NCBI GenBank assembly: GCA_034190875.2 | Contig: CM067354.1 | Span: 46,396,245 to 46,460,244 of the forward strand | Reading direction: 5' to 3' | Length of the DNA: 64,000 nucleotides | From: Urechis unicinctus | Lineage: Eukaryota > Annelida > Polychaeta > Xenopneusta > Urechidae | Shown here: positions 1-47,946 of the stretch, piece by piece | Numbering within the stretch: the first letter of the stretch is position 1 | How the letters are laid out: every line of letters begins with the position of its first letter | Made by a program: the position numbers and the translations under genes | The notes under the pieces: generated by a model | What the model was told of the DNA's origin: nothing | Seen by the model: the letters and a program-made list of their open reading frames with translations, nothing else | Databases searched by the model: none

Positions 1-3000
1 TAAGACTTTCGAAATTTTACTTTGCGACAGTCTTTTGCATCTATGTATCATTATAGTGGTTGTAGTCCAAATGGATGATGGGATCCTGTCATGAGTCTGG
101 CTTATAGTGTGCCATGATGTAGTTAACGATGCACCAATGCAACAGGCAAAAAGGCAAAAAGCCTCGTCGAGACCATTTGGTAGATAGTCATTTCCGTTTC
201 GTAAATTTAATTTAAATTTGTAGAGGATGCTTATATGACCATATAACCGACTATTGTCGATATCTATGCTAACGTTAGTGTCATTGCCATAAAAACCATT
301 TAAATACGTGGAATGTATTGTATTCATTCACCACTTGGTAGTTGGTAGCTGATATAATAAACGTTTATTTTGATCGATGCACATTTACAGTGTGTAGTCG
401 CATGGTAAATGTGGTGTTGAAAGCTATCTTGGCCTATATGATGCGATTGTTAAATATAACTGCCCTTACTTGAACATACTCATTCTCCGCAAGTTTTAAA
501 CAAGGTAAACATGTCTGGCACTGTCCATTATAGTCCTATCACTTCACGTTAGCGCTGTGTATTTATGTGCTGGTAGGAAATGCCTGGATGACCTTAGGGT
601 TTACTCTGAAGGAACATGAGTCAAATGCTTACTGAAACCAGGCGCTCTAATATAAATGTGCTGCTTCTTGCGATACGTGCAGGTACCATGAAAGCATTGA
701 TGTTCGCCTAGCATTCCCTTCTAGCACCCTCACCCCTCTCTTCTTTGTACGCCATACAACCTTCCAATCCCTATTCTTTATTCTCTAGTAGCAACGATAA
801 TGTGGCCACGACTTGTCACGCTGGCTAAAGGGATTATGCAAAAATGGTTTCTGCGTCGACTACCGCTCGTCAGTTCGTGATCGTTAAACATGAATCCATC
901 TTCGCGATCCCTTGTCAGCATGGTTCATTGAGTTATTACGATTCAATTGAAGTTCGAAAGGAGCACTTGTGCTTATAAAAGATAATTCGTAACGGGCAAT
1001 GTGCAAGCCGTGGAGCGTTTAAATGTGCATCATGTATATAGTGACTACATGGCTACCTAAATGCAAATTATGCAGCCATAAGCAATGAATGAATGCTTCC
1101 CTCATGCAGAAGTAACGTAGAGCAGATTGTTAGATTTCACTATATCTTCCTTGCAGTCGACGGAATATATTTAAGAAGGATTTACCAATTGATTTTACAT
1201 TCTGTTCAATCTTTCTTGACCATAGATAGCTAAACTATCGTTCAGGTAGAACACAAAATCAGAATAAAGTGGAATTGATCGCACTCATTGCATGTAAATG
1301 CCTTTATTCGATCATATGTCATGAAAATCGCTCAATATAAATTAGACTCTGAATCAATATTTGTCGTATTGCACAGTTCGACGCCGCTCATCTGGTTCAA
1401 TTAATGCAAGATAGAAACGTAACGGATGGTATATGATTGTAATCTATTTAAAATACATGATGCAGAAATAAGAATCAGGTTCCACTTGCAATAAATTATG
1501 CATCGTAGTATTAAAAAAATAAATGATTAAAGTCACACTATAAATTCTACGCTCTATGACAATATACGCAATCATATCCTATCCAATTTCTATGCCTGGT
1601 TATTTTAATATGTCGTGCGATAATGTTTTGTACGCTTATATTACCCTGTAGCAGACTAATGCGTAATCAATATTGCACACATAGTCAGTACTGAACAATA
1701 TCATGGGCCGCGATAGTATCACATCGTACATTGTGACTGCAGCCTCTAAATTAATGTACCTTATGATACATCAATGTATCCAATAAATGCCGAATTCATT
1801 TGATTATGAAATCGAAAGTGCATCGTTGAGAGAGTTCGGGCGATCACGTTTTCCGTTTTACTTCATTCGATGGTATTCCTAAAAGATACTGGTTAGACCA
1901 AAGCCACTGTACCTCACAGAATATCACATACAGTCGATTTGTAGACAATGCCATAGAAAGATTGATATTATTGACCTTAGCTATGGTAACTGTCAGTACT
2001 TAAACGAAATAAATAGATTGCCGCAAAAAGGATTTTAAACCTGCAAAGGGTATGGGAAGTGTTATATTCAACACTTAATGTTGCCAGCGGATGTCATCAA
2101 TTTACTTTTGTTTATGATAAGAGCCTATTACACAAAGCGTCCAGTCACAAGACGTGTATGGTTATACAAGTGATCCTTCCTTTTATGTTACGGGTTTTTA
2201 ATTAATTTACAAGGATGAGTGACAGAGCAAAGATGTATGCCATGTCGTCGAGCTGCCCAATGTAAGTGTTCCTTATAGCCACAGACGAAACCCGCTAGTT
2301 TGCAGTTTATATGCGTGATGTTCCGGATAATAACCATCAAAACGAGACCCACATAATCCTATCACTCTGCGTTAGTGGCTGCAAGGTTAGATGCGCAGAT
2401 AAAACAACGCTACATTACTTATCTAAGATAAATTTTATTGCATTTCCGGAATTGCAGAATTGGATGCTATGTAACCTCGTATATAGAGATAATAGTTTTT
2501 AATGCAGGAACAGATTTGACATACATTCTGGCAATATGTTCTACCGAAAGAGTGACTGAAACCGACATGCTATAATTAGTCAGGCAACTCATTCAATCCC
2601 AGCAGTATAATCTATAGATATTTTGAGATGACGGAATTCTATCCGTTTAACTGAACTGGCGAAGTGATGACATTAAAATCAACTCATTTGCATTTGCATT
2701 CACAAAATCACCTATCATGGTGCTAGTTATATATCTTTTCGATTACCAAAATATCCTACCGTATTAAGACAATTTAACGCAATAAGGTACAAGTAGTATG
2801 AATACTTTCGGTAATGTGTCTTGTTGGACAAAATAATGCGCCACAATTATGACGGATGAAAGCAAGCATATAACTAAATGCGCATTTTGGTCAGAGTTCC
2901 ATAATGTGCACTACGTCGTATACCGTCAAGGTGTTACGCAGAACATAACCTTTATGACGTTCGGCTTTCTACTCTCTTTACCATCAAACAGTATCGTAAT

Positions 3001-6000
3001 GTTTGCAAGTGTGATTGACCACCATAGATCGACCCGACGTGTCCCAATGCATCATTTCCAATGACCAAAAAAACACGAAAGCCATCGTTACAGAGCAGTT
3101 TCAGACGACATGATTTGCTGTCTTGTCTAGTGTGATATCAATACGTAATATCTTTGGTCAACGGATCCACCCTTTAAGGCACTGTGGAACCAGTATGTAG
3201 TGTTATTGCTGCGCAACACGTAGCGTAGCACAGGACAGTGTGTTCTTAATTAATTTGGATCAGTGGGATCATTAAATTAGCTTGGACTTTTGCTATGCAC
3301 TATAAGTTAACAATAAGATTGGATTGACAGCTGCGGGTGCTTTTGTTAGGGACTGTCTTGATTTACATGTTTAAGTTGTGCCTCCTTTGGCACAGAAAAT
3401 ATCATTATAAGCAAGACAATGCAAGAGCATCCTAATGTGCGATGAAGGAATCAATTATCTTGTCAGCTCGTATGCACCAACCCTCTTCGTACCAACATAT
3501 GTAAACACCTTGAGATTTGTCGAGTAAGCTGCGTGAGAGGCAGTGGTTGATTTTTGATAGGCTCAACAAATCATAACTCTTGACCATTTTACAATTGCAA
3601 TAACGTTAAAACGCAGGATAGAACCAATACAATTACTTCTAAAAGCAAAGGTTTTAACCCTTAAACTTGTCTTTTAATCAATAGACCATAGGATGAGCCT
3701 CGGTAGACAGAATATAGAACAATTTTGTATCTAATTAAAAATAAAGTAGATATTATATGATGCTCATCGCACGGTAAAGCTACAACAGTGCATATGATCC
3801 ACTAAACCTTATGCCTCTCAGAACAATATTTCGCTATCCGGGCTGAGCTCAGTTTTACGTGTTGGTAGCCAAAGGAATGAATCACTCAGCGACGAATTCG
3901 TGGCGTCGGGCCGCCGCATTATTTACACGGGCCAGTCGTACTAGTCTAAAGCATATATTGTACTTATCAGCATTATTCGGTTATTTAGCTTTTTCTGACC
4001 TTTTATCTTCTGCTGCCTTGCGTTCAATATGCTGACACAGCAACAAGACTACTCCTGGTGTTGAAATCGCCTCACTGCGCTTGGATGCACTATTAAACCA
4101 CTAGTCATACACAACAGAACATTGCAAAATACGCTTAGGTTTGCTGTTATCTTGCCTCGGTAGTGCATCGAAAACATGAGAACGTCAGCTGGCTATAATA
4201 ATTGATAAACAACCTTTATTTTGTAAATAATGTCCATGCCATAGCTAAGCTACGTTTGTGTTTATCAATTGGTAATTGCTCACAAAAACACATACTCCTC
4301 ACTTGGTTGCACTAATTATATGGGATTTGTTTCTCATAATTTTGCAATCAAATTCACACATATGCATTCCAAAACGCACGCAATATAGAGCAGGTAAAGC
4401 AGTGTTGCTCGTATATTATCAATTTCCCTAACTACATGAAGGCTCTATAAATCAATGCCTTATCAATAATATCGGTTCGTAATACTCCAAGCACCATTTG
4501 TGATACCATCACATGAAGCGTAATTTCGGCAGTTATTCTAGAACGCTGAGACCAATGATGCCAACTTGCAACTAACCAGTGTCATCACTGCAATGCATGT
4601 TCTTATCGGGCAATTATCAAAGGGAGCCATGATGTCCATGAAGCCAGGCAAGCCCAAGCAAAGCACATAGAAATGTAGAGAAATATGTGTAGTCACCCTA
4701 CCTTTAATATGACTTCCGGCCCCCTATACTTTCTGCGACACGCGTCGAATCACAGATGCCAACTTATCAACCCATTGCATGCACAATGTGCGAGGCAGCT
4801 TACCTACTTCAAATTAACGCACACGCGGCCCAAAGTTCATGCTGCGTGGCAACAGAAGGGAACCATGTTTTGTTAAAAAGAATGTCTTGACAGCATCGCA
4901 TTCGCGCACGATGCGTTCGTTTTCTCTGGAGGTGCAGTCATACACTGGCTACGTTAATAACTAATAATAATAATCGACTGTATGCAGTATCAAGGCATTA
5001 TCTTATGATCCTGCCATGCGCCATATTGTGAAGTTGACGCACTGAGCTTACTATTACTATATCACTAGCATAGCAGTCCATAAACGGTGGCACCTTGTTA
5101 CTAATCTTCCATTTCCATTCTTATATTGGCGTTAAATCTTATAATATCTAAGTAAATTGCAAACACTCACGTGTGATATTTAAGTAACTATCAAACATCA
5201 GTCACTGCCTCTCACGTAGCTTACTCTACAGATATACATGGGTGTCCATACCGCCGATATGTCATTCAGTTATGTAGGTCTACGCATTTTAGCGATTTTA
5301 TTATGCTTGGGTCCATACAATCACTTGCCTAGCAGGCGTGATGTCATTAATGCCGATAGATTGTGCTAAACATCATAAAGTCTCTAGATCTACGCCTATG
5401 TATCGAAAATGTAACCATAGTTTGTAATAAAACATTGTGGTTTTGGAGTGTTAGGTGTAGTAATGATGTTTGCGTCTACACTCATATGAGTTGCCGAGAG
5501 AGTTTTGCTAACAAAGACCGATATGAATTTCTGCTATAGAAATAGACCTTACCAATATGTGTTTTTTTATTTGTTGTATTCTGCGCTTGTAATAGATCGC
5601 TTTATTTATGCTGCACCTGCCCGAACTTAGCGTTTCCTTCCGGGTGCATATTCAGCAATGCCACTGCGGAAATGTTATGAATGCCACATGTTTGGAAGCT
5701 ATTTGTTCTGAAAACCGATACAAGAATGTCGATCAGAAGGCCCCCAGCCAAATATGTTTTATATGCTCATTAATACCATATTGTGGTACGCCACAATAAA
5801 AATATCGGCCGATTAACGCTCAGGACTCCTGATAGTTTCGTATCGTTAATTGGATTTGCCTCACTTAATTTCACATTACTATTATTCCGTAATGTCGCCG
5901 CCTATGCTTAACGCCTCCAATCAGAGCAAAAGTCTCGCAAATAGTTATAGCATAATGCTTCTGTGGGGCCTTTCTGTAGATTACCTCCAGCCGTTTCAGA

Positions 6001-6250
6001 ACGTCAAATCCGATTTCCCAAAAAGATTGATAGGATCACCTAGATATTATCAAATAAATGATCAAATCTAGACGATACCAAGGCGATTGCATACCAAGGT
6101 TAATGGGATTTACCTTAACTGTATTATCATAAATTGTCTCGAATGGCACCATTTGCGGAACTATGTCGGTAAATAACCAACATTTCAATCATGAACCCAC
6201 TAGAGCAAACCCTGATATAATCGGTTGGACAATCATTGATCCTAGTTAAA
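1..6250 (+). repeat. Repeat unit A (outer unit of left arm)
   Basis: This is the most complete unit of the arm family. Its first about 1,870 bases are repeated in direct orientation as unit B (7,788 onward), and its part near 6,070-6,190 recurs in B at 9,450-9,560. Pieces of A also recur, diverged, at 50,148-53,010, 54,000-54,160, 56,990-57,330 and 60,250-61,115. Short open frames inside (for example 2,311-2,502 and 2,849-3,064) are not kept open in the other copies, so I treat the unit as non-coding. A pyrimidine-rich stretch near 715-790 is a recurring landmark of the family. Confidence 0.85.
4200..5845 (+). repeat. Left-arm segment absent from right arm
   Basis: The left-right match runs continuously to about 4,195 (partner 37,490) and resumes at about 5,850 (partner 37,475), so about 1.64 kb here has no counterpart in the right arm. 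Part of it (4,372-4,690) recurs in the same strand orientation at 60,785-61,115. It is therefore family sequence that was probably lost from the right arm rather than newly inserted in the left. No coding sequence is recognised; the two open frames of 63 codons (4,685 and 5,608) have no support. Confidence 0.75.
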
Positions 6251-6254
6251 GTTT

Positions 6255-8228
6255 CACATTTCTTTTCTGATATTCGCAGCTGTCTCGATATGCACATTTA
6301 TATTAATGCTAGCCTGAAGTCATTTGATATGATATTCTCCTATCGTTGCTTTTCATGTGTTTTGCCTCTATTGCCTGACCAGAAATAGATGGTTGGTTAG
6401 GTGTCATTAAATCAGCCTGTAATTGAGATGCGTCTTACTTCATCTGAATAGACTGTGTCAGCCACACGCATGTGGATAGTCATAACGTCCGCATATAAAA
6501 ACTAACAGAAGCTGCATTTGGCATTTTCTATTTCAGATATAGGCAAATTACAGATATAAGCAAATTACAGTGGGAGGTCCTTATACGGGTGGCAAATATG
6601 TTTCCATAAAATTGTACTTAATGTGACTATTTGAAGGTATACCTGGTTTAAATGGCTGGTTCTCTTTCTAACGCTGTGCCCTTGATGTATATGTATTGCA
6701 AGTTTGCATAACTTTCCTCAAGGTTTTAAAATGTTATAATGCGGTTCGGTTCTGGTTGATAACATAGCTATTTCTGTAAGTATTTGCATGAATATTTGCA
6801 CCAGTGTGATGTTAGGAAATAAAGTGACTGCATCTTTGATGTTCCACATAACTTTTATACACTGCACTGTAGGTTTTGTTGGCAATTTCTATTAAATAGC
6901 AGAATGAAGCAGCACAGTTGCGTGGAGAATGCTGCGCATATATCGCATGGTCCTGTTGACTTTTACATGAGCGAATAGCGTTCAAAACACTATAAAACAT
7001 TTCACATTCCTCTAAAAGATTTCATGATATTTCAGGTTGCTTTTATTATACTATGCTAAACGCAAAAGCAGCACAGCCGCTTTATTTCACCTTAGCTGTC
7101 GCGTGACCTTAAGCAATAAAAGATCCGCAAATAGTTGGATTGACAAGAATAGTGGAAGATAATTATAGTGCCTGATGCAGACTACATATTTGCAACAAAA
7201 TCACTAGTCCTGGGTCGGTATTTTTCTATTCATCGGATTAATAATGCAGTATACCCATGAAGCGACCTTTTGCTAAGTTTATATAGTTCCTTTGATATAG
7301 ATATATCGGTGGCTAGTATGAATTCACATCGTATCACGTCTGCTATGTTACGCTGCAATAACTGGCTGCATAATTATAGCCGTCAGTTATGTAGATTTTC
7401 GTGTGCATATCAATTTGATGTCTAATAAGAGCAGTGGGGAACAACATTGCACCGATTGTCCTTGACGGATGGAAAGACGTGTACTACTTTGGTGGCAGAT
7501 GCATTAGAACCCCTATATTGTAATTCTTCACTGCACATAAATTATAATCAAGAACTGTCTGAGACTGTCTATATAATCATAAATGTTTCGAGCACAAAAT
7601 TATCAACTAAAAGCCCATTACATAATTATGCGTGGTTATAATCTTATGATGCATCATTAGATGTGGTTTGAATGAGTACGATGCCTTTATGCGAAATATT
7701 GCTAAATCAGTATTTGACACATCGTCAGTATTGATAAAAGGTTCTCAATTGAAACTGAGACATGTATGAAATCATATGATAATTGTGGATATACGATACT
7801 GTCACGGGTCAGGCTTATCTTGTGCCATGATGTCGCTGACGGTACATCAATGCATCAGTTTGAGATAAGCAATCGAAAAGTCGCTATTCGATACAATCTG
7901 GTAGATTACCTCAAGCCCTTACGGTGTGTGATGTATGTTTTAGAGGATGCTGAAATGCGAAAATCACAGTATTATACTCATTCAGCACTTTGTGTTGGTA
8001 GCGGATACCATAAGAGTTACCTTTTTGATCACGGAACGTTTACAGTATGTAGTCGTAGCATAAGCTATCCTGAATTATATAGCACGGGCTTGTTGAATAA
8101 AGCTGCTAGAATAACAGGCAGGACACGGTAGTTGCCATGTTTGCAAAAGGGCTATCGACGACGAACCTTACTTGAATATCATTGTACTCGTCGGAAACCT
8201 ATCGTTCCTTGACGCAGGCTAATGATTT
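6255..8228 (+). repeat. Left-arm A/B junction segment absent from right arm
   Basis: The right arm passes directly from the partner of about 8,229 (near 37,075) to the partner of about 6,250 (near 37,088), so about 1.97 kb of left arm is missing there. The segment contains the tail of unit A, about 1.5 kb with no recognised partner (6,260-7,780), and the start of unit B. It also holds a 17-base direct repeat at 6,534-6,567. A 121-codon open frame (7,766-8,131) lies across the A/B homologous part but is closed in A, so it is not taken as a gene. Confidence 0.75.
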
Positions 8229-9560
8229 GCCGAGGCAAACTTGTCCTGTCAGAGCTGTCAATAACAGTTCTGTCGCTTAACGCTTGTCTTTGAGTTACAC
8301 TGCCAGATCATAAGTAGAGTGCTGACTTGAACTATGCTTACTAACATTTAGGTGCTAATTCCTTCAATTCCTAACCCAAGGTGCTGCTTCCTGTCATACG
8401 CGTTAGTACCAAGAAGTCGTTTATGTGCGCCTCGCATCCCCTTCCAACCCCCCCCCCCCCCCACTCTCTTTCTCTTCGTCTTACACCAAACAACCTGCCT
8501 ATCCCTGTTTTCTATGCACTAGTATCCACTAGCCCATAAAATGGCCAAGACCTGTTTCGCTTTTTTTAGTGATCATAAAGTACTAGTACAACATTAAGTG
8601 ATCCGTAAACATGAAGCCATCGTCGTTTGCTATTGTCAGTGTGGCTTTTGCGTCATTGCGGTTCAATTCCTATCCGACGCCTGGGCATTCATCTGCCTTG
8701 TAGCTAGCTACCTGTTCCATACTGCTGATCGAGTGTACCCGAGGTCCTTATTAAAGGTAACTTGTATCAGCAATTTGTAAGCCTATCGGCACCTGTCTCT
8801 TTAACATGTGCATCATACAAATATTGGCTACATTCGGGTAATTAAATTATGCCATTGCATATGCACTTGTTAACATTGAGAGGTACATTAAATTGATTTT
8901 TGCGATGTTCATCTGACGCAGCAGTAGCAATTGCAACAATGTGGATTGTTAAGGGTAGACAGCAGCACGCAAAGGATAACCCGGATTAGTCACATGGCTT
9001 TTCCGTCAACATATTTTCATATGATTGTAATCTATTTCACATTCACGATACAGAGATAATGATAAAGTGCAGCAAGACAATAAATGATGCCACATTGTTG
9101 TCAAAAAAATATCAACGCCTGAATACTTTTTGTATGCTCTAATGGAATCCATAGCATAGTATCTTATTCAACTGCTACGCCCTGTTTTATTGATTTGTCG
9201 TATCATGTGCTTAGATTTGGACTGTTTATGTTGCCCTGTGATGAGCTACAAATTTAACCTAATAATCAAGCATTTTGTGCCATTATACCTTAACACACAT
9301 CGATGCATCCATCAAATTTCGTATGGACAATCGAGAGTGCATCTTTGAGATAGTATGGTAGATTACCTCTTGCCGTTTAGCTTATTCCATTTCATTCCCG
9401 GTACAACCAGAGCGACTATGCCTTACTAACGATCAAATTGTGTTCCAGGCAACATCATAGCTGGAGAAATATCATTCACCTTTGCTAGGGTGCCATAAAT
9501 AGCCTGAAATGGTACAATTTGTGACATTACCCATGCGAAATAGATATTTAGATTAGGTAA
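7788..9560 (+). repeat. Repeat unit B, shortened direct copy of unit A
   Basis: Bases 7,788-9,400 follow unit A 85-1,870 in the same orientation. Shared landmarks are the start (tgtgccatgatgt near 7,822 and near 108), the pyrimidine-rich stretch (8,430-8,520 and 715-790) and the block near 9,296-9,350 matching 1,768-1,830. B then jumps to sequence matching A near 6,070-6,190 (B 9,450-9,560). It thus lacks about 4.2 kb of A's interior, or A gained that interior later. B is also present in the right arm (about 36,150-37,083, reversed), so the A plus B arrangement predates the inverted duplication. Confidence 0.8.
8448..8462 (+). repeat. Poly-C run in unit B
   Basis: A run of 15 C sits inside a longer pyrimidine-rich stretch. 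The partner in the right arm is a G run at 36,930-36,942 followed by another short G run, so the homopolymer expanded before or on both sides of the inverted duplication. Unit A has only short C groups at the same place. Confidence 0.9.
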
Positions 9561-11310
9561 TCACGGAAGTTTACTCCTAAAATACAATCTGTTTATGCAG
9601 GTAACTGGGTAGAGACGATACATATGCATTTCCTGATCAGCCAAGGGTAAAAGTAGCGATAAATTTGCGAAATGTCTATACCTAAGTGCCACTAATCATG
9701 CAGAATTCAGTGATTACAATGCAATGCCCCTTTTGGGGTCTGTGATATATACAAACAGAGTGGTGCGTGACAGCCAAGCGATTATGTATCAATCAATATA
9801 TGCTGTTGTGTTCCTTTCTCATTACCCATATGAGGAAATTCAAGTCTGGCAAAGTCGCTGCATTATGTAAATGGTAGCTTATTGTATATCATTGTTATGA
9901 AAAATCCTCACTTATCACAATTTACATCTAGATGTCTATATATCACTTGCACACATAATGCCAATTTGATAAATTGCAAAAGGAATAAACACTAGTCTCA
10001 TTAATTACATTGTACCCGAGCATTATAAGGACCAGTTTCCTCGACAATCGTTTCGCTTGCCTCTGACTCGCTCTCCCTCTTAAGCCGCGACAACCAACTT
10101 ACTTCCCCAGGAGGGGATTGCACAGATTGCTAACACATTTATTTTTTATATTCGTTTATGTGATGCACCACGCGTATGTAATTCTTACAATATTCGTAAA
10201 AAGGGGTAAATTACACGGCTTAAATGCCCATTCCTATCAATAAGCTTAAAATACCGGCTTGCTCTATATTAGTAGTATCGGAACATTCGGTGGTAATGCT
10301 GTTAATAGTGTAGCAGTAGCGAACACGTGGGATAGTTAACGTCATCGTTTAACATGTAGCTGATGTAGTGAAGACAGCGTCTTTGTACGATTGCCTGACA
10401 CATGGTAATATCTTCGAATCAGTTTATAATTATATATTATTGCCGAGTTGGCCAACGCCCCTATGATTACATAGGGTTGGCTGTTAGAGCGCCGTGCACC
10501 TGCTCATTATATGGCCCATTGTCAGCGCGCTACACCGGAACACAAGCGCATATACATTTTGATAAGCTTGCATTATTTCTGATATCTACACATATACAGT
10601 TCTTCCCTGCTTAAAGTGAAATATGCGAAACGATTGCTTTGCAAAATTTGTCTGCAATATGCATACAAACTAGGGTTTTATCGTACAGCGTAAGTGCTCT
10701 CCGTCTTGACGGCATTATCTGCGGGACAAACTAGAGCACATTACCTCGCACATTTCACCCATTGTCTTACATAGTAGTTTTTTTTTCAAGTGAAACCTGT
10801 CTGTTGATATTGTTTTGTTGAAAAGCTGTCCAGGGAGTAATGCTAAATGCTCAAGCTCCATATCTGACTCCACAGCGAGGTTTGCGTTAACGTGAAAGTG
10901 GTTTTGTTCGTTTTCATGCTACATTACCATGCAAAATTGATAAAACATATATCGTTCTCTTAGTGATGTAACCAAATGTCAAAGCATTAGTATGCAAATT
11001 GCTGATGCCAGTGCTAGAGTACATACATTTAATTTTCATGCTTAGTTTCCCACCTGCTGGTTGTACTCATTTTTACACTATGGGTGCCTCTTTCCTCGTA
11101 ATTGCTCAATGTTCAGTAAATAATGATGGCCGGAATTCAGTCGTAAGAGCGTGGTCAAAATTTATGCACGTGGCATTTCTTCTTTATCATCCGATTCGTT
11201 GTAAATTCGAATGCCTGCCTATATTGTAACTTTTTAACAGCTATTATCCTATATGCGGATATATTGTTTGTCTTGTCTGTTATTTACTTGCTAATACCTG
11301 TAAATTGATA
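9561..11310 (+). repeat. Inner part of left arm, no gene
   Basis: This stretch matches the right arm at about 34,270-36,150 in reverse. A block at 10,440-10,520 corresponds to the right-arm sequence that is tandemly duplicated at 35,041-35,326. Short open frames (10,402-10,614 and 10,999-11,229) overlap only partly with frames in the partner and drift out of frame, so no gene is called. Similarity becomes hard to follow beyond about 11,090 and is only suggestive to 11,310. Confidence 0.75.
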
Positions 11311-14879: not shown

Positions 14880-15214
<335 letters not shown>

Positions 15215-33513: not shown

Positions 33514-33519
33514 AAACGT

Positions 33520-33628
33520 CTTGGTGCAGTAAAATGCTTCTCTATAGGAACCGTGTGTGTAAAATGCAGTAAAAATGCTTCTCTATAGGAACCGCGCATG
33601 ATGTAGGATGTACTTGGTGCAGTAAAAT
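33520..33628 (+). repeat. Short tandem repeats
   Basis: The phrase aaaatgcttctctataggaa, followed by ccg, occurs at 33,531-33,553 and again at 33,572-33,594. The phrase cttggtgcagtaaaat occurs at 33,520-33,535 and 33,613-33,628, forming a small nested tandem structure just before a TA tract. Confidence 0.9.
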
Positions 33629-33672
33629 ATATATATATATATATATCAATATATTCATATATATATATGTAT
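33627..33672. repeat. Short (TA)n tract
   Basis: TA repeats with one interruption (tcaatatattc). Confidence 0.95.
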
Positions 33673-33971
33673 ACATATGCAAGTTCCAACACTCAAGTGA
33701 TGCGAATGAGGCATGGAACAATCGGCATTCTATAAATATACCGCGGTTCACTTGTATTATGAAATATCAGCTGTCAGTTATACACCTTATAACAGTCAAT
33801 CCTGCTTATCATTGCATCATATCAGTTGTGCGCAATTTCAATGGCGCTAATGCGTTATGTAACATACTGCTTCTTACATCCTTGTGCTTGCCATCAATAG
33901 ACAGTTTCAAAACAATGCCTAACGGCCCATGACACTGCGATGGATATGTTGTTCTTTGTTTATTTGCGCTA

Positions 33972-35040: not shown

Positions 35041-35326
35041 GAGCAGGTGCACGGCGCTCTAACAGCCGACCCTATGAGAGGTGTTTGAGTCGTAATAACA
35101 GGGGCGTCGGCATCCTCTGCAATTATATACAATTATATACTGATTCACGGCATGCTTCACAGGTCGTTTCCAGGGTAAGGCAATGAGCAGGTGCACTGCG
35201 CTCTAACAGCCGACCCTATGAGAGATGTTTGATTCGTAATTACATAGGCGTCGGCGTCCTCTACAATTATGTAAATTATATACTGATTCACGGCGTGCTT
35301 CACAAGTCGTTTCCAGGGTTGGGCAA
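35041..35326 (-). repeat. 144-bp tandem duplication in right arm
   Basis: Unit 1 (35,041-35,184) and unit 2 (35,185-35,326) both begin gagcaggtgcac and contain cgctctaacagccgacccta, ctgattcacggc and tcgtttccaggg. They are about 90% identical. The left-arm partner (about 10,430-10,520) has a single, shorter copy, so the duplication happened in the right arm or was lost from the left. Confidence 0.92.
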
Positions 35327-36929
35327 GACGTTAGCAATAAATCGTGCGAAGATATTGTCATGTGTCAGGCATTCGAACAATGACGTTGTCTTCACTACAT
35401 GAGTTACATGTTAAACGATGACGTTAACTATCACACGTGTTCGCTACTGCCACACTATTAACAGCATTACCACCGAATGTTGCGATACTACTAATATAGA
35501 GCGAGCAGGTTTTTTAAAGCTTATTGATAGGAATGGGCATTGAACCCCCGTAATTTACTCCTTTTTTTACGTATACTTTAAGAATTACATACGCGTGGTT
35601 CATCACATCAACGAACAATTTGTGCAATCCTCTCAGTATATTTTTAATCTAGTATCTCCCTGGGGAAGTAAGTTGGCTGACGTCGCTAAAGAGGGAGAGC
35701 GAGTCAGAGGCAAGCGAAACGATGGTCGAGGAAACTGATCCTCATTATGCTCGGGTGCAATGTTATTAATGTAACTGATGTTTATTACTTGTGCAATTTA
35801 TCAAATTGGCTTTATGTGTGCCAGTGATGTCTAGACATCTAGATGTAAATTGTGATTAGTTTGTTTCATACTTTTTCGTAGCAATGATATACAATTTGCT
35901 ACCATTTACATAATGTTGCGATTTGGCTAGACACGAATTTCCTCACATAGGTAATGAGAAAGGAACAAAAAACAGCACCCTCTATAACAAATAGATATAT
36001 TGATTGATATATAGTCGTTTGGTTGTCACACACCACTCTGTTTGTTTATATATCAGACCCCAAAAGAGGGAAATGCGTTGAAATCACTGAATTTTGTAGG
36101 ATTCGTGGCACTTATCTATATACAATTCGCAAATTTTGCAGTGACAGTGATATCAAGCATTTAGACAGTCATCGCGTGCAGTGACACATTCAGCAGCGTT
36201 TGATCTTCACAATCACTTCAGTCGATTGTATTTAGACATTTGACACTGTTTTGTTATTCGTTTTGAAAAGCGTCGGTCAATGCATATAGCATGTTTTCCA
36301 AGTTATTGTTCACATAATGCATTGGAAGACTATTATATTGACAGAAAGCAGACAGAACTCATCGTGCTCTTAGTCACAACACTATCATAATTAACATTGC
36401 ACTGATATCTGAGGAACTTTAACCAAAGGTTTGGCGACACGGCATACAATGATGTGTGACAAAATGGCAGACCATGAAACCTAGGGACTGACACTACGGC
36501 ATTATAACGGCTGAACGCAGCTTATTTATTAAGAAGGATGTCAAGAGGAACGCTAAATGATAGTCTATGTGTGTAAAACTCGTTTTCATCAAAGTACAAC
36601 AGGCTGGTCGCACTCGATAAACAGGTGTTGAAAATTTGTCGTGTTTTAAGTCAACCCCACCCAAACATCTTGGACATCAATAAACGATGCCTTCAAACTG
36701 CACTTGCAAGAATATCAAGACTTGGGGTTGGAATTGAACCACAATGACTCAAAAACCACACTGAGAATGGAAAACGACGATGGCTTCATGTTTACGGATC
36801 GCTCAATGTTGAACTAGTACTTTATGAACACTATAAACAGCGAGACAAGTCTTGACCATTTTACGGGGTAGTTGATACTAGTGCATAGAAAACAGGGATC
36901 GACAGGTTGTTTGGTGTAACACGAAGAGA

Positions 36930-36950
36930 GGGGGGGGGGGGGAGGGGGAT
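36930..36950 (-). repeat. Poly-G run, partner of left-arm poly-C
   Basis: Thirteen G, then A, then five G. This is the reverse-complement equivalent of the C run at 8,448-8,462. Confidence 0.9.
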
Positions 36951-37085
36951 GCGCACACATACAATACTTCATGGTACTTAGTTCAAGTCAGCACTAGTAC
37001 TTCTTATCTAGCCATGTAACTCATAGACAAGCGTTAAGTGACAGAACTGTTATGGACAGCTCGGACAGGACAGGTTTGCCTCACG

Positions 37086-38690
37086 AAACTGTGAAACTTT
37101 AACTGGGATAAATGATTGTCGAACCGATTATATCAGGGTTCGCTCTAGTGGGTTCAATATTGAAATGTTGCAAAATTAATTCTGCTTATATACCGACATA
37201 GTTCCGCAAATTGCGCCATTCGAGACAATTTATGACAATACAGTTAAGGTTAACCAGGTGTGCTGTCGCCTTGATATCGTCTGCATTTGATTGTTTGTTA
37301 TCCTATCAATCGTTTCGGGAAATTGGATTGGACGTTCTGAAACGGCTTGAGGTAATAAACAGAATTGCCCCAAAGAAGCATTATGCCATAACTTTTTTGC
37401 GAGACATTTGCTTTGATTGGAGACTACGGCTACATTACGGAATAATAGTTATGTGCAATCAAATGAGGCACAAGAGTACGAAATAATTTTAGCCAGCTAA
37501 CGTTCTCATGTTCTTGCGTTCTCGATGCAGTTCCGATGCAAGCTCACAGCAAACCTAAGAGTATTTTGCAATGTTCTGAAGCGATTTCAACACCGGTAGT
37601 AGGTGTAATTCATCATATAAAACAGATACCAAGTCCGACATCAGACTGAGTTGAAATACCCTTAACTGGGCCGACATACATTGCCCTGGATATGTGAATT
37701 TTCCTCAGCATGCCGATTGACATTGTGCTACACTGGACGGCAGTATAATAAGATCTGATGAATGCCGATTTTATTTTCTCGATAGTAATTGTAGCTTGTT
37801 ACATTATTAACAATAATTTGGAACGCTGACATGATTTAATATGCCCATGGAGATGGTATATGCAACCGCAGAAGATAAAAGGTCAGAAAAAGCAAAATAA
37901 CCGAATAATGCTGATATGTACAATATATGATTTAGACTTGAACGAATGGCCTGTGTAAATAATGTAGCGGGATTCAACCCTTTTGGCTACCAACACGTAT
38001 AACTGAGCAGAGCCCAGATAGCGAAATATTGTTATGCGAGGCATCAGGCTTAGTTGAGCCTATGCACTTTTGTCGCTTCTATGTGCGATGAGCAGCATAT
38101 AAGATCTACTTACATCAATTATATGCAAAATTGTTCTATATTCTGTCTGCCGAGGCTCATACTATAATCTATTGATTAAAAGACAATATTATTGGTTACA
38201 ACGTTTGCTTTTAGAAGTAATTGTATTGATTTTGCCATGCGTTTTAAAGTTATTATAGTTGTGCAATCGTCAAGAGTTATGATTTGTTTAGCCTACCAAA
38301 CATTAACCACTTTTCCATATGATGGTACAAATAGGGTCGGTGCATACGAGCTGACAAGATAATTGATTCCTTCCTTGCGTATTAGGATGCTCTTGCATTG
38401 TCTTGATTATGTTGATATTTTATGAGCCAAAGGAGGCCAAACTTACAAAACAAGCGAATTAAGGCAGCCACTTACCAAAGCACCCACAGCTGCCCATCCA
38501 ATCTCGGTATTAACGGATGGTGCATATAGATAGTCCAAGCTAAATGAATGAAAATCCAGTTAACAGAGCTCATATGCTTTGAATCGCAACTTAGAATTCC
38601 ATGATCCCACTGATCCCAATTAATTAAGAACACACTGTCCTTCGCTAAGCTACGCGTTGCGCAGTAATAACACTACATACTGGTTCCACA
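37086..38690 (-). repeat. Right-arm unit A block, no gene
   Basis: Bases 37,086-37,475 match left-arm 5,850-6,250 and bases 37,490-38,690 match left-arm 3,180-4,195, both in reverse. The 91-codon frame at 37,211-37,486 lies in a block also present at 6,071-5,850 (reversed), 50,250-50,540 and 57,080-57,330; it is not kept open in those copies. Confidence 0.85.
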
Positions 38691-41600
38691 GTACCGTAAA
38701 GGCTGTTGACCACAGATATTACTGTTTGATATCACTCTAGAAACGACAGCAAGTCATATCGTCTAGCACTGCGTCATAACGACGGCTTACGTGTTATTTT
38801 GTCATTGGAAAATATGCATTGGGACACGTCGGATCGATCTATGGTGGTCAATCACACTTGCAAACATTACGATACTGTTTGATGGTAAAGAGAGTAGAAA
38901 GCCGAAAGTTATCTTTGCGTTACACCTTGAAGATTTACCATATAGTGCACATGATGCAACTATGACCAAAATGCGCATGTAGTTATATGCTTGCTTTTAT
39001 TCGTCACAACTGTGGCGTAATATTTTGTCCAACAAGGCACTTATTACCGTGAGTATCCATGCTACCTTATTACATGAAATTGTCGTTATACGGTAAGATG
39101 TTTTGGTAATCAAATAAACATATAACTAACTCCATGATAGGTGATTTTGTGCATGCAAATGCAAATGAGTTGATTTTGATGTCATTACTTCTCGGGTTCA
39201 GTGTAGCGGATACAATTCCGTCATCTCACAATATCGACCGATTATACTGCTGGGATTGTAGGAGTTGCCTGACTCATTATAGCTTGTCATTTTCAGTCAC
39301 GCTTTCGGTAGAACGTATTGCCAGAATTTATGGCAAATCTGTTCCTGCATTGACAACTATTTTCTCTATATACGAGGTGATGTAGCAACCATGTCCACAA
39401 TTTCGGAATTGCAATTAAATCATCCTTGGGACGTTATGTAGATATAATGATAGCATGTTTATGTAGAAGATAGCGCGCCTTAATGTAGCTCAGCTGTTGC
39501 TTGAAAGGGTTGCCGTCCTGATATCATTATGGGTTTGGTTTGATACGTTTGCGAAAGATAGTGACTTCAGAGTTTTGATGCTTGGTGCACTTAATGAAGC
39601 ACAATTGTACTTGTTGGAGACCAAATATATTGCTGGAAAAATGGTAAAATGCGCAATATAGGAATAGACGAACGCCTACAATGGTTGGTGTCTCTTGTCA
39701 TATGATTTATAAATCAATTGTTATGCGCGAATAGTAATTGATGCCAGTAATAGAACAGTAAGTTTACCTTGCAGTTATTGCGCTGTAAGCTAGTGTTAAA
39801 TATGGAAACTATAATGAGACATACTTAGCTTGATGTGAGCATACACAACAAGATATCTTCGACAACTGAGCAATTGAATATTCATGAGATATGAATATTA
39901 CATGATAAATTTTTTCTATCGTCTGGGATATGCAAAGAATCATCCTTCTGTCTCCATATATCAGGTACAATGAGTAATTACATTCGTGCTGATGCCAGGA
40001 AGTGCAGAGATAAATATCCACGAATAGCCAATGATGCACAAACCGGCATTCTTCATTACATCATCATACCAAGAATATTCACATGCACACATATGCCTCT
40101 TTTAAATCCATCAGATAAAGAAATACGGGCCTCTTAATCATCAAAAACATCATCGGTTGCTTAACAACATCTGGCAGCTTCTCTGATTAACCGAGATCCA
40201 TACTAGTTATCCACTCTCTTAGTCTCAAAAAGGGCATATTCGTCACTGGAACGCTGATGAAAAGTGGGTCATGATGTTTCCACTCATGTGTTAATTTAGG
40301 ACGTATTAATTGATGTTAACCGATATATAGCGGCAAACACTGAACGTTTGGGCTTGAATAATGTCATTTTTAAACTGTGCAAAGGTTCGTTACATTTAAC
40401 GTACATTTACGGGACTTTACGCTGGCCCTGATATTAAAACTAATGCCTCAGTCAATAATCTGCAAATAATATCGAATAGGTTCGCCAGTAATACGTCAAT
40501 TGAGTTGGCGTGTTGTCGAATGTCGGGAATCGACAAGTAACCATGAAGTCAACTTGAGCCCGTCCAACCATCCCATCCAGACTTTAAGTCCCGGATATTT
40601 ACTTCAGACATTAATGTGAATGTCCAATATTGATGCGTTCATATCCTTGCATACTCATTTGTTGCATCCCGCAAATCTTCTGTTGATATGAACTCTTGAT
40701 AACATAAGATGATTATGTTATTTGGGGGAACATTCTAACGACATTTGAGATAAGAACTGACGAAAAGGGGGCTTTATTAAGATGTCTTCAAGATCACAAA
40801 AGGAACATTGATCGATCAATCAACTCCTTGTAACATAATTGATTCGACGATTAGCTAGTGGAAAACAAAATTAAAGAATATTTGCACTCAAAAGCTTTTA
40901 ATACCCTTATCTATGAGCTATAGTGTATTGTCAATTTGCTCTTGACAAATAGTAATTTATTCCACCATTTTTAAGTGCTCATATAATGTATGCGGACAAT
41001 TGCTGGCTCCATAACGCACGGTCATGGTAATAGACAATTAATGCAGTGTCAGTAATAAGACAGAATGTTGCCTGAAAGTAGCTCTGAAATGCATGATCCC
41101 CCAGTAAGAGGTTATGTCGTGATACAGCATTAAGTCGCGCAGTAGCAATAACGTCATGTATCTTGAGCTCTCAGAGGCACGCATTGAGAATGACATCCCT
41201 GATGATGTCATCATCGACCAGTGGTTTTTATTGTCGTGTCGAACATGATCAAGCTGAAAGCATTTTGTCGTCTCTTGAGGCAGAATCTTTGAACATAATT
41301 GGCATTATCTTATTGTGTATGGATGAAGAATAGTTTGTTTCTATGGATTCCAAAGATGCAGTAATCAGTAGCAGTATAACCTACATATATCATATGGTCG
41401 ATACACGACTGCAATACAAAATAAGACGCATACTGCAAGATCCGTGGAGTAACTTGGCAAGTTGACAGTATTTGGAAGCAAAATATCATTACTAACTGTG
41501 CGGTATTATGGCCTTGAATAACCTTAATCGGAACAATGTTAGGGTTGAGCACGATAAGCCATGTAGCGTAGCGTTATCATGTCTGCGCATCTATCATTGC

Positions 41601-42064
41601 AGCCACTAACACAGAGTGATAGGATTATTTGGGTCTCGTTTTGATGGTTCTTTTCTGGAACAGCACACATATAAACTGCACACTTGCGGGTTCCGCCTGG
41701 GGCTATAAGGAACACGAATATTGGGCCAGTCGACGTGACATTTAAGGAAGGATCACTTGTCTAACCATACACGTCTTGTGACTGGACACTGTGTGAATAG
41801 GCTTTTATCATAATTACAATCATGACATCAGCTGGCAACATAAAGCGTTGAATATAACACACCCCATACTCTTTGACTAAAATGCAGGCTTAAATCCCGT
41901 TTGCGGCAATCTATTTATTTTAAGCTTTGGTCTAATCAGTATGTTCTACGAATACCATCGAATGATGTAAAACGGAAAACGTGGTCGACTGAATTCTCTC
42001 AACGATGCACTTCCGATTTCATTATCGAATGAATTCGTCATTTATTGGATACATTGATGTATCA
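38691..42064 (-). repeat. 3.37-kb tandem duplication, unit 1
   Basis: This unit of 3,374 bases is followed immediately by a nearly identical unit at 42,065-45,439. The join shows the two-base overlap ca. The duplicated interval corresponds to left-arm 1,765-3,180, which is present once there, plus the 2.1-kb segment missing on the left. Predicted peptides of 63 and 80 residues are repeated in both units simply because the DNA is; they carry no recognised motif. Confidence 0.98.
39435..41555 (-). repeat. Right-arm segment absent from left arm
   Basis: The left-right match breaks near left base 2,425: one side continues at about 39,435 and the other at about 41,555. The 2.1 kb in between has no left-arm copy. 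The same segment is repeated in duplication unit 2. Its final part resembles 51,540-51,780 in copy C, so it is family sequence and the left arm most likely suffered a deletion. No gene is supported. Confidence 0.75.
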
Positions 42065-45000
42065 GTACCGTAAAGGCTGTTGACCACAGATATTACTGTT
42101 TGATATCACTCTAGAAACGACAGCAAGTCATATCGTCTAGCACTGCGTCATAACGACGGCTTACGTGTTATTTTGTCATTGGAAAATATGCATTGGGACA
42201 CGTCGGATCGATCTATGGTGGTCAATCACACTTGCAAACATTACGATACTGTTTGATGGTAAAGAGAGTAGAAAGCCGAAAGTTATCTTTGCGTTACACC
42301 TTGAAGATTTACCATATAGTGCACATGATGCAACTATGACCAAAATGCGCATGTAGTTATATGCTTGCTTTTATTCGTCACAACTGTGGCGTAATATTTT
42401 GTCCAACAAGGCACTTATTACCGTGAGTATCCATGCTACCTTATTACATGAAATTGTCGTTATACGGTAAGATGTTTTGGTAATCAAATAAACATATAAC
42501 TAACTCCATGATAGGTGATTTTGTGCATGCAAATGCAAATGAGTTGATTTTGATGTCATTACTTCTCGGGTTCAGTGTAGCGGATACAATTCCGTCATCT
42601 CACAATATCGACCGATTATACTGCTGGGATTGTAGGAGTTGCCTGACTCATTATAGCTTGTCATTTTCAGTCACGCTTTCGGTAGAACGTATTGCCAGAT
42701 TTATGGCAAATCTGTTCCTGCATTGACAACTATTTTCTCTATATACGAGGTGATGTAGCAACCATGTCCACAATTTCGGAATTGCAATTAAATCATCCTT
42801 GGGACGTTATGTAGATATAATGATAGCATGTTTATGTAGAAGATAGCGCGCCTTAATGTAGCTCAGCTGTTGCTTGAAAGGGTTGCCGTCCTGATATCAT
42901 TATGGGTTTGGTTTGATACGTTTGCGAAAGATAGTGACTTCAGAGTTTTGATGCTTGGTGCACTTAATGAAGCACAATTGTACTTGTTGGAGACCAAATA
43001 TATTGCTGGAAAATGGTAAAATGCGCAATATAGGAATAGACGAACGCCTACAATGGTTGGTGTCTCTTGTCATATGATTTATAAATCAATTGTTATGCGC
43101 GAATAGTAATTGATGCCAGTAATAGAACAGTAAGTTTACCTTGCAGTTATTGCGCTGTAAGCTAGTGTTAAATATGGAAACTATAATGAGACATACTTAG
43201 CTTGATGTGAGCATACACAACAAGATATCTTCGACAACTGAGCAATTGAATATTCATGAGATATGAATATTACATGATAAATTTTTCTATCGTCTGGGAT
43301 ATGCAAAGAATCATCCTTCTGTCTCCATATATCAGGTACAATGAGTAATTACATTCGTGCTGATGCCAGGAAGTGCAGAGATAAATATCCACGAATAGCC
43401 AATGATGCACAAACCGGCATTCTCCATTACATCATCATACCAAGAATATTCACATGCACACATATGCCTCTTTTAAATCCATCAGATAAAGAAATACGGG
43501 CCTCTTAATCATCAAAAACATCATCGGTTGCTTAACAACATCTGGCAGCTTCTCTGATTAACCGAGATCCATACTAGTTATCCACTCTCTTAGTCTCAAA
43601 AAGGGCATATTCGTCACTGGAACGCTGATGAAAAGTGGGTCATGATGTTTCCACTCATGTGTTAATTTAGGACGTATTAATTGATGTTAACCGATATATA
43701 TAGCGGCAAACACTGAACGTTTGCTTGGGCTTGAATAATGTCATTTTTAAACTGTGCAAAGGTTCGTTACATTTAACGTACATTTACGGGACTTTACGCT
43801 GGCCCTGATATTAAAACTAATGCCTCAGTCAATAATCTGCAAATAATATCGAATAGGTTCGCCAGTAATACGTCAATTGAGTTGGCGTGTTGTCGAATGT
43901 CGGGAATCGACAAGTAACCATGAAGTCAACTTGAGCCCGTCCAACCATCCCATCCAGACTTTAAGTCCCGGATATTTACTTCAGACATTAATGTGAATGT
44001 CCAATATTGATGCGTTCATATCCTTGCATACTCATTTGTTGCATCCCGCAAATCTTCTGTTGATATGAACTCTTGATAACATAAGATGATTATGTTATTT
44101 GGGGGAACATTCTAACGACATTTGAGATAAGAACTGACGAAAAGGGGCTTTATTAAGATGTCTTCAAGATCACAAAAGGAAACATCGATCAATCAACTCC
44201 TTGTAACATAATTGATTCGACGATTAGCTAGTGGAAAACAAAATTAAAGAATATTTGCACTCAAAAGCTTTTAATACCCTTATCTATGAGCTATAGTGTA
44301 TTGTCAATTTGCTCTTGACAAATAGTAATTTATTCCACCATTTTTAAGTGCTCATATAATGTATGCGGACAATTGCTGGCTCCATAACGCACGGTCATGG
44401 TAATAGACAATTAATGCAGTGTCAGTAATAAGACAGAATGTTGCCTGAAAGTAGCTCTGAAATGCATGATCCCCCAGTAAGAGGTTATGTCGTGATACAG
44501 CATTAAGTCGCGCAGTAGCAATAACGTCATGTATCTTGAGCTCTCAGAGGCACGCATTGAGAATGACATCCCTGATGATGTCATCATCGACCAGTGGTTT
44601 TTATTGTCGTGTCGAACATGATCAAGCTGAAAGCATTTTGTCGTCTCTTGAGGCAGAATCTTTGAACATAATTGGCATTATCTTATTGTGTATGGATGAA
44701 GAATAGTTTGTTTCTATGGATTCCAAAGATGCAGTAATCAGTAGCAGTATAACCTACATATATCATATGGTCGATACACGACTGCAATACAAAATAAGAC
44801 GCATACTGCAAGATCCGTGGAGTAACTTGGCAAGTTGACAGTATTTGGAAGCAAAATATCATTACTAACTGTGCGGTATTATGGCCTTGAATAACCTTAA
44901 TCGGAACAATGTTAGGGTTGAGCACGATAAGCCATGTAGCGTAGCGTTATCATGTCTGCGCATCTATCATTGCAGCCACTAACACAGAGTGATAGGATTA

Positions 45001-45439
45001 TTTGGGTCTCGTTTTGATGGTTCTTTTCTGGAACAGCACACATATAAACTGCACACTTGCGGGTTCCGCCTGGGGCTATAAGGAACACGAATATTGGGCC
45101 AGTCGACGTGACATTTAAGGAAGGATCACTTGTCTAACAATACACGTCTTGTGACTGGACACTTTGTGTGAATAGGCTTTTATCATAATTACAATCATGA
45201 CATCAGCTGGCAACATAAAGCGTTGAATATAACACACCCCATACTCTTTGACTAAAATGCAGGCTTAAATCCCGTTTGCGGCAATCTATTTATTTTAAGC
45301 TTTGGTCTAATCAGTATGTTCTACGAATACCATCGAATGATGTAAAACGGAAAACGTGGTCGACTGAATTCTCTCAACGATGCACTTCCGATTTCATTAT
45401 CGAATGAATTCGTCATTTATTGGATACATTGATGTATCA
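42065..45439 (-). repeat. 3.37-kb tandem duplication, unit 2
   Basis: Differs from unit 1 by about ten events. Most are one- to four-base insertions or deletions in runs or short repeats (for example near 39,322, 39,640, 39,909, 40,330, 40,350, 40,765 and 41,795 of unit 1), with about two substitutions (near 40,054 and 41,766). Net length change is +1. That is well over 99% identity, far closer than the two arms are to each other, so it is either a recent event or an assembly duplication. Confidence 0.98.
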
Positions 45440-46154
45440 TAAGGTACATTATTTTAGAGCTTGCCGTCATAATGTACGATGTGATACTATCGCGGCCCAT
45501 GATATTGTTCAGTACTGACTATGTGTGCAATATTGATTACGCATGAGTCTGCTACAGGGCAATATAAGCGTACAAAACATTATCGCACGACATATTAATA
45601 TAACATGGCATTAAAAATGGATACGATTGCTACACTGTATGAGAGCATGGAATATATTTTGGGGCGTTAATAATATATTTTTTTAACACGAAACTGCATG
45701 ATTTATTGGTAAGTGGAAGCTGATTCTTATTTCTTCATCGTGTATTTGAAATAGAATGCTATCATAGGACATTCGTTACGTTTCTATCCTTGTATGAATA
45801 GAACCAGATGAGCAACGTCGAACGGTGCAATACAACAAATATTGATTCGGTGTCGAATTTTTATGGAGCGCTTTTCATGACATAAGATCGAATAAAGGCA
45901 TTTGCAAGTTATAAGTGCAATCAATTACCCTTTGTTCGGCTTTTGTTTTCCTCCTGAAAGATAGTTTGGCTGACTGTGGCATAGAATGAGTGAGTAGAAG
46001 GTAATCAATGTTTCTGCTTGGATAATCCTCCCTAAATACATTCCGTCTACTGCAAGATTTAGTGAAATCTGGCAATCTGCTCCACGTTACTCCTGCATGA
46101 AGGATGCATTCATCCCTTGCACATGGCTACATATTTTGCATATAGGAAGCCATT

Positions 46155-46855
46155 CTCATCTTAACAGATGAGTGCGGTACTCATCGAAATATCAAAGCAA
46201 GTTTCCACATGTTGCTTTCGCGAAGGACTCTTACTAAATGTGTAGGATGCGTTTCAAAAATGGAGTTTGTCATCGATTGACGGTTGGTGTTAATACGGTT
46301 TGATTCCCATTGCGATATATGTATGTGGCTGTTGCTCCTTGGTTTACCTATATCTGTCTCCACCATTAAAATGTGAGGATATTATGAAAACGAGAAAGAT
46401 ATTCACTGATAAACCTTTTCAATGTTCTAATGCATTTGCTTCTAAACGGTCTGTATTTCCCATCCAAAAGGATGGATGAAAAGCGCCCTCTAAGTTACCA
46501 GCAGCTGCATCCAATAATGCAGCAGCACTAACGCTGTATGAACAACTTCCCCACAAGCCTGCTTCTAGAATGATAAGAATGTGTAGGTAAGTATTATCCT
46601 TAAACTTTAGGTAGTTCTACTTTGCTTACGCTGAATGGAAACAATGCATGGAATAGATGATTGTGACATGGGGATAATAATGACTTACATGTCTATTCTG
46701 GGACGTAGAATAGTTATACGCATAGCAAATGGTGGTATTAATGCACACACAACAGGCATCACATTGTAAGCACTGTATCATGCAGGACTCGTGAGACTTA
46801 ATTCGTTTGAATAACGTTCTTCCGCATGTTAAGAAATGCATCGCTCAGTTACCTG
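46155..46855. repeat. Extra 0.7 kb in right arm
   Basis: The flanks match left-arm bases on each side of about 1,050 (1,060-1,130 with 46,050-46,150; 1,010-1,050 with 46,855-46,905), but this segment has no left-arm counterpart. Unit B also runs straight across the site (near 8,820), so this looks like an insertion into the right arm. One edge has the hairpin ctcatcttaacagatgag. I see no matching terminal repeats and no supported open frame. Confidence 0.7.
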
Positions 46856-47946
46856 GATGTAGTCCCTACATGCATGACGCACATGTAAACGCTGAACGAC
46901 TGGCACATTGCAGAATCACCTTTTATTAGGACAGGTGCTCCTATCAAACTTCAGTGTGCAACATGTAGCCAGCTTCACAGCAGATGAATATCTAGCCTTG
47001 GGATCGGAATGGATTCATGTTTAACGATCACGAAATGATGAAGGGTAGTCGACGCAGAGACCAGTTATGTATAATCCCTGTAGACAGCGAGACAAGTCGT
47101 GGCCACTTTAGGGTTGATACTAGAGCACAGGGAATAGGGATCGGGAATGGGGTACGAATAAGAGAGGGATGAGGGTGCTGTAAGGGGATGCTAAGCGAAC
47201 ATCAATGCTTTCATGGTACATGCACGTATTGCAAGAAGCAGCATATTTATATTAGAGCGCATGCTTTAAGTCAGCAATCGACTTAGTTTCCGCTAGAGTA
47301 AGGTCATCGACGCATTTGCTATCAGCACATAAATACAAACCGCTAACGTAAAGAGTAGAACTATTTTGGACAGTGCCAGCCATGTTTACCTTTGCAACTC
47401 AACTTGCGGAGAATGTGTTTGTTTAAGTAAGGGCCGTTGCGATACTCCCGTTAAGTGGTGAACACTGTCTGTTATTTTGGAGGTGTATCTACCAAACCCA
47501 TTATACATAGTCAGGATAGCTTTGAACACGACACTCACCATGATTACACTCTGCAAATGTGCATCGATAAAAAAAACGCTCATTCTATCAGCTACCAATT
47601 CAAAGTGGTGAATGAATAGAATACATTGCACCGCATTTAAATCGTTTTATGACAATGCCAATAATGAAAACATAGATATCGACACTGTTCGGTTATATGG
47701 TCATATAAGCATCCTCTACGAATTAAATTAAATTTGCCGGAACGGAAATGGTCTCAAAGAAGCTTTTTGCGATTGCCTATGGCGAACTGATGCATTGGTG
47801 CATCGTTAGCTACATCATGGCACCACGATAAGTCAGACACATGACAGGATCCCATCGGCCATTTGGACTACAACCACTATAATAATACATAGATGTTTAT
47901 GTCACTTTGAAATAGGGTTTCGCAAAGTGAATCTTCGAAAGTCTTA

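Follow-up and report, generated by a model that had tools for sequence, protein, structure and literature searches.

The window, a 64-kb stretch of DNA analysed here in its full length, was placed at C13:46,396,245-46,460,244 in an assembly of 1.19 Gb. It holds the inner parts of two long arms in inverted orientation (L and R), a loop between them (S), a set of old repeated modules, a recent tandem duplication and several (TC)n(TA)n microsatellite arrays (Table 1). Flanks of 100 kb on either side were added and coordinates are given relative to the window, except where C13 is named. These 264 kb, which contain N runs left of -47.7 kb, were read completely, and the remainder of the 1.65 Mb considered below is represented by matches and small samples. 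No coding genes were found in the tested sequence.

Table 1. Coordinates of the principal features of the window.
Feature	Position	Strand	Remarks
Left arm L, inner part	1..11113	-	Minus-strand chain with 34472-47946
Right arm R, inner part	34472..47946	+	Minus-strand chain with 1-11113
Right arm R, outer part	50470..64000, on to ~+86 kb	+	Partner is the left flank of the window
Loop S (23-kb "spacer")	11885..33970	+	Inverted copy S' at +118.3..+145.3 kb
Module E, L copy	5640..6290	-	nhmmer and tree; others at 37062-37480, 50130-50771, 56947-57565
Module E', L copy	1600..2015	-	nhmmer and tree; others at 9200-9620, 41833-42064, 45208-45556, 52600-53060
Module B, second L copy	7600..8857	-	First L copy 1-1055; R copies 36544-37088, 46832-48084
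Recent tandem duplication, copy 1	38689..42063	+	99.4% to copy 2
Recent tandem duplication, copy 2	42064..45438	+	Junction overlap 2 bp (CA), read by eye
(TC)n(TA)n array	49132..50082	.	TRF; ~40 bp before the homology block at 50121
Further (TC)n(TA)n arrays	14881-15214, 23536-24289, 27427-27713, 33978-34181		TRF

The existence of two facing arms that are collinear in reverse complement, as claimed in the original prediction, was borne out by self-BLAST. A minus-strand chain was found with blocks of 72.7-88.5% identity each, and Markov-2 control sequences gave no match in any of five self-comparisons. The outermost blocks of the chain are 1-1050/46857-47946, 1049-1904/45299-46153 and 2007-2413/44941-45295, followed by 2432-4013/37868-39420, 4115-4203/37482-37578 and 5857-6261/37087-37470, and innermost by 8232-8334/36979-37082, 8405-8670/36730-36978, 9661-10416/35347-36136 and 10416-11113/34472-35146. 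The ends at 1-11,113 and 34,472-47,946 were reproduced by a self-comparison of higher sensitivity, so that the arms as first drawn stand, with inner ends (11,310 and 34,270) about 200 bp too generous. Within the chain, substitutions amount to 14.2% over 6,082 ungapped sites (14.6-15.6% across inner and outer local blocks), with about 21 gap openings per kb.

The outer end of the left arm had been expected to lie out of view, and this proved correct. With the flanks included, the true arms run from about -25 to +11.1 kb (~36 kb) and from +34.5 to +86 kb (~51 kb). The continuation pairs -25.1 to -0.3 kb with 50.5 to 86 kb on the minus strand, with unaligned gaps between blocks such as -1679..-275/50470..51863 (77%), -2750..-1677/52703..53775 (79%), -6248..-2748/54178..57458 (70%) and -8347..-7062/60001..61366 (80%). 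The unequal length of the arms is due to the 3.4-kb tandem duplication in R and to stretches missing from each arm. A further tandem duplication of 146 bp is carried by R at 35038-35183 and 35182-35326 (90%). The inverted repeat is confirmed as genuine and is larger than first described.

The loop was also found in more than one copy. Minus-strand blocks between S and S' are mostly of 69-88% identity, with substitutions at 15.8%, and parts of S have more copies, out to C13:48.04 Mb. S' lies in turn between further inverted arms, Y and Y' (109-115/156-163 kb, extended to ~104-115/156-171 kb), in which no homology to L or R was seen. Recurrence of the nested order of arms and spacer had been put forward as the mark of an element. 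The loop does recur inverted between inverted arms, but no resemblance of those arms to L or R was seen and the recurrence is local. The other outcome envisaged, a one-off duplication, fails because loop and arms have further local copies on C13. The inverted repeat is neither a stand-alone 48-kb element nor a single duplication event.

Further pairs include a palindrome centred at about -31.9 kb and a direct duplication at -59.2..-53.6/-42.0..-36.9 kb (88-93% identity), and related pairs extend back to about -72 kb in the left flank. K2P distances were computed on local blocks with a minimum of 62% identity and 90 columns (67% identity in the named groups), so that the values lean low and older pairs are left out. 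The L-R blocks give 0.162 (inner) and 0.175 (outer), S-S' 0.178 and Y-Y' 0.184. The palindrome stands at 0.149, the direct duplication at 0.075 and a direct pair at 116/150 kb at 0.236, and all remaining pairs pooled give 0.264. The four inverted sets (L-R inner, L-R outer, S-S' and Y-Y') are similar, at 0.16-0.18. Homology within the region covers 53% of bases between -52 and +164 kb (46% by inverted and 18% by direct pairs), and the region holds 91 inverted pairs (65.9 kb aligned) vs. 40 direct pairs (24.1 kb aligned). The divergence of copies ranges from 0% up to about 40%.

One of the TA arrays lies 290 bp from the inner end of R, and the proximity of arrays to block ends is not clearly above chance. 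Within S, a direct repeat of 62% identity was noted at 16403-16875 and 31565-32059, 15 kb apart. An element of ~100-130 bp, present near microsatellites at 23946-24080 and 33420-33530 (87% alike), looks like a short interspersed element.

The arms are built from an old repeated unit, the modules E, E', B and H being mutually related. A profile search (nhmmer) was carried out with nine modules, none of which had a hit in the control sequence (10 x 62 kb). Copies of E, E', B and H are spaced 1.3-4.8 kb apart (read from positions) in L and R as well as between 50 and about 60 kb, keeping the orientation of their array, with the exception of module F, which is inverted in its 51-kb and 60-kb copies. 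The possibility that E is a small transposon was rejected, since its copies hold the orientation of the array. In a tree of nine E and E' copies (midpoint root, five of six inner branches strongly supported, one long branch flagged), L and R are grouped in the E as well as the E' clade. Next to branch off are the copies at 50.4 and 52.8 kb, and those at 57.2 kb and at 9.4 kb in L fall outside. This pairing of L with R within both clades indicates that the module split is older than the inverted duplication. Among the 3,383 alignment columns of the 3.4-kb tandem pair (38689-42064/42063-45439), 4 hold substitutions and 15 hold gaps, and the copies differ by 0.6%.

Genome-wide searches with four queries from the window gave 6, 10, 8 and 29 matches, each count including the query itself and being a lower bound (common words were skipped, and all 5, 7, 5 and 17 first-look candidates were scored). 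All 53 matches, four of them the queries themselves, are on C13 at 46,394,216-48,042,634, including 29 of 29 for the query at 16400-19280 within S. The C13 matches occupy the middle of the chromosome (46.4-48.0 of 79.6 Mb). An 8.6-kb query from +104 kb gave at least 78 matches (40 of 2,450 candidates scored), of which 21 lie on C13 between 46.50 and 47.79 Mb. The remaining 57, on other contigs, all fall within positions 4167-4736 of the query (C13:46.504-46.505 Mb), a dispersed element, the recovery of which demonstrates that the search does see dispersed DNA. Control queries of 3 kb from C13 at 45.5 and 49.5 Mb matched themselves and dispersed repeats, with no local copies among the 40 of 261 and 40 of 822 candidates scored; a third (L037) gave 113 microsatellite matches, its own locus not among them. 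Exact patterns had 0 matches in collections of viral contigs and genome contigs, from which own or near-genome records may be absent.

These searches bear on the fold-back-like element that was among the original suggestions. A giant transposon resembling Foldback/Galileo would have long inverted arms, internal repeated units and a middle part, as are present here, yet it is scarcely credible at this locus. The arms lack ends at 1 and 47,946 and run past both, the loop is duplicated apart from the arms, no transposase was found among the scanned stretches, and the four queries matched only C13 at 46.39-48.04 Mb, with no copy found off that chromosome.

An assembly artefact or a contaminant is highly improbable. 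There is a 100-N gap at -47.8 kb, and the copies that differ by 0-0.6% could be haplotype duplication; on the other hand, the arms are about 15% diverged and N runs are absent from -47.7 to +164 kb, in flank pieces and window alike. In addition, a retroelement fragment to the right of the gap (Pfam Exo_endo_phos_2, E 2.2e-6) had at least 48 matches (from 40 scored candidates out of 72), 41 of them on other contigs, and a family so common to other contigs argues that the region is native to this genome. The endonuclease/RT fragments of the left flank, which we take to be RTE-like, are located at C13:46,337,731-46,338,571 and in flank piece L007 at 8700-9550; they are 91% alike, 17 kb apart and part of the direct duplication described above, and are among the few transposon traces seen in the region. 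An inverted pair at 47.443 and 47.991 Mb, 0.55 Mb apart, is identical at 698 of 698 bases, and may be very recent, homogenised or an assembly duplication.

A frame-wise substitution test was run on the 90 kb aligned in 131 paired blocks, taking ungapped stretches no shorter than 60 bp that had 5 or more differences. It was flat, with a mean z of -0.06 over 2,460 frame tests, of which 7 were above +3 and 11 below -3 (best z 4.3). No three-base periodicity was detected in the window, 151 indels left remainders of 1, 2 and 0 in 82, 37 and 32 cases, and ORF lengths resemble those of Markov sequence. The periodicity, indel and frame tests are the basis for reading this DNA as non-coding, and the last two agree with the earlier remark that the arms share no open frame. 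The window holds 1,604 open stretches of at least 25 aa, and Pfam results for 283 of these (273 of the 283 that reach 54 aa outside microsatellites, and ten of 26-52 aa chosen for conservation) were at chance level, with best E-values of 0.0037 among 144 and 0.0015 among 139. Ten of the 98 open stretches of at least 105 aa in the flanks were scanned, giving one retroelement hit and otherwise weak ones. The window has no tRNA genes and no Rfam match, and RNA folding of 1,506 windows of 120 bases was like that of shuffles (mean z -0.06, 0.5% below -3).

Two exact runs of 74 and 73 bp are shared by L and R, where 1,000 shuffles reach at most 56, and L-R identity is overdispersed (variance 12.1 vs. 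6.1). Constraint on such islands was considered and is unsupported by the outgroup copy, as judged on one long island: in the first island 72 of 120 sites are retained, against 123 of 176 elsewhere, so it is not better kept. Neither did L-R identity per window predict outgroup identity (rho 0.08, P 0.56, 51 windows); an initial correlation (rho 0.36, P 0.0002) had pointed the opposite way and was confounded by shared branches. The islands of excess identity look more like gene-conversion tracts between the arms than like constraint.

It is very unlikely that the repeats are introns of a clustered multi-copy gene family whose exons are tiny. A local cluster in both orientations is typical of such families, the two exact islands of 73-74 bp would suit this reading, and the Pfam scan covered few open stretches below about 54 aa. 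However, the frame test and the indel remainders speak against it, as does the one island examined in the outgroup copy, and CpG is little depleted here, yet depleted in a genic-looking control locus. We consider it quite unlikely, too, that this is an ampliconic region with palindromes that is sex-linked, or recombination-suppressed for another reason. The nesting of inverted repeats on a single chromosome, the identical inverted pair and the signs of conversion tracts are all consistent with such a region, but the paired sequence has no coding signal and most arms differ by 15-40%.

In 23 pieces from -60 to +164 kb, the G+C content is 0.37-0.40 and the CpG observed/expected ratio (o/e) is 0.85-1.01. 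Three control loci have CpG o/e of 0.39-0.57, one of which (C5:30.0 Mb) looks genic by appearance only. Seven small samples from 46.99, 47.07, 47.44, 47.70 and 47.90 Mb, of which three overlap and all but one were chosen for matching the family, have values of 0.76-1.09. With N removed, CpG o/e is 0.85 and 0.88 at -100..-90 and -70..-60 kb, and 0.62 and 0.56 at -90..-80 and -80..-70 kb. This drop perhaps counters the CpG reading given below, marks an edge of the region or reflects a minisatellite. A repetitive open stretch in flank piece L023 (2033-3443, within -90 to -70 kb) is probably a minisatellite. Over the whole window GATC (o/e 0.74) and CGCG (0.78) are under-represented and AA/TT is not enriched (0.93-0.96).

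The weak CpG depletion, judged against few controls, suggests that the region is little methylated in the germ line; it would also suit the normal intergenic DNA of an animal with methylation chiefly in gene bodies. That it holds across more than 200 kb may point to a special chromatin state, which plain neutral duplication leaves unexplained. One reading built on this is that of a gene-free, apparently little-methylated, chromosome-private domain of about 1.65 Mb with the nested inverted repeats as working architecture instead of debris, either a non-satellite centromere or a recombination-suppressed (sex/supergene) core made up of fold-back duplications around loops that recur, and this we regard as rather unlikely.

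(Peri)centromeric DNA, in the sense of a non-satellite centromere region with loops and flanking inverted repeats as part of chromosome structure, was weighed separately and is unlikely. It would be in keeping with the mid-chromosome position (weak alone), the lack of coding signal, matches private to one chromosome and a composition unlike that of two C13 flank samples. The centromeres of C. tropicalis have inverted repeats around a non-repetitive core (PMC4741521). Here, however, the G+C content of the loop is 0.31-0.42 per 2 kb, similar to the arms, so there is no AT-rich core; the loop is not unique, the arms are diverged by some 15% instead of homogenised, and the window is without tRNA.

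It is moderately probable that the region is a chromosome-private hot spot of repeated, mainly inverted local duplication of non-coding DNA, and a sequence-encoded function is probably absent. Among the original suggestions, a segmental inverted duplication is supported, with local inverted copies and the same family continuing beyond the arms, and a chromosome-structural feature is a possible one. Over a long period, non-coding DNA of the region would have been copied locally, inverted more often than direct, and the region would have grown in this way. Copying took place in several rounds of all ages. The old repeated unit diversified into modules E, E', B and H, and a block of about 36 kb (L)/51 kb (R), the loop S and the neighbouring arm Y are each present with an inverted copy (K2P 0.16-0.18). 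The direct duplication (K2P 0.075), the 3.4-kb tandem (0.6%) and the identical 698-bp inverted pair are younger, and part of this recent copying (the 0.6% and 0% pairs) could be assembly duplication. Judging from one junction with a 2-bp overlap, the copying may have proceeded by fold-back repair or by template switching at replication forks. Long (TA)n arrays and existing inverted repeats may provoke new breaks and switches, making the region self-feeding, and the absence of genes may let it persist, no sequence-encoded function being required.

Local segmental duplications of the inverted type are likewise large, local, mosaic, in both orientations and of several generations, but here the arms are about 15% diverged, there is no coding signal, the private span is 1.65 Mb and CpG is little depleted. 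Segmental duplications are usually defined with a cut-off of at least 90% identity. The chains, at 11 to about 36 kb, exceed the required 1 kb; L-R and S-S' are below 90% identity, which is reached by the 3.4-kb tandem and in part by the direct pair. The copies are low in number and not those of a dispersed transposon (53 of 53 matches on C13, as lower bounds). Ampliconic sex-chromosome palindromes have in common with this region nested inverted repeats, conversion-like islands and, in one case here, an identical inverted pair (698 bp). The arms of such palindromes are kept nearly identical by conversion; the main arms here differ by about 15%, being mostly old and diverged, and no genes were seen.

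Foldback/Galileo elements (PMC3573991) share the long inverted arms with internal repeats, and differ in that no transposase, no ends and no dispersed copies were found here. Complete copies of these elements have a transposase in the middle part, and the elements have defined termini and dispersed copies; here Pfam over the 283 window stretches was at chance level, the arms run on outside and no copies were found off C13. The regional centromeres of C. tropicalis and S. pombe are similar in having non-coding inverted repeats around a loop (PMC4741521). C. tropicalis has a non-repetitive core of 2-5 kb and homogenised repeats of 2-5 kb; here a 23-kb loop is duplicated, with copies at 118-145 kb and beyond, between diverged arms of about 36-51 kb.

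The locus represents a chromosome region expanded by self-copying, mainly reversed, over divergences of 0 to about 40%, in which no gene was found and no dispersed transposon stands out as the driver. Inverted repeats spaced by 30 kb undergo rearrangement in single-stranded DNA of yeast, and only heterology above 25% suppresses it (PMC10164571). The spacing of L and R (23 kb) and their level of substitution (about 15%) lie within those limits. The region offers a natural case for asking if a locus of this kind is the mark of a centromere or a non-recombining core, and if diverged inverted repeats at a wide spacing continue to drive rearrangement, as shown for single-stranded DNA in yeast (PMC10164571).
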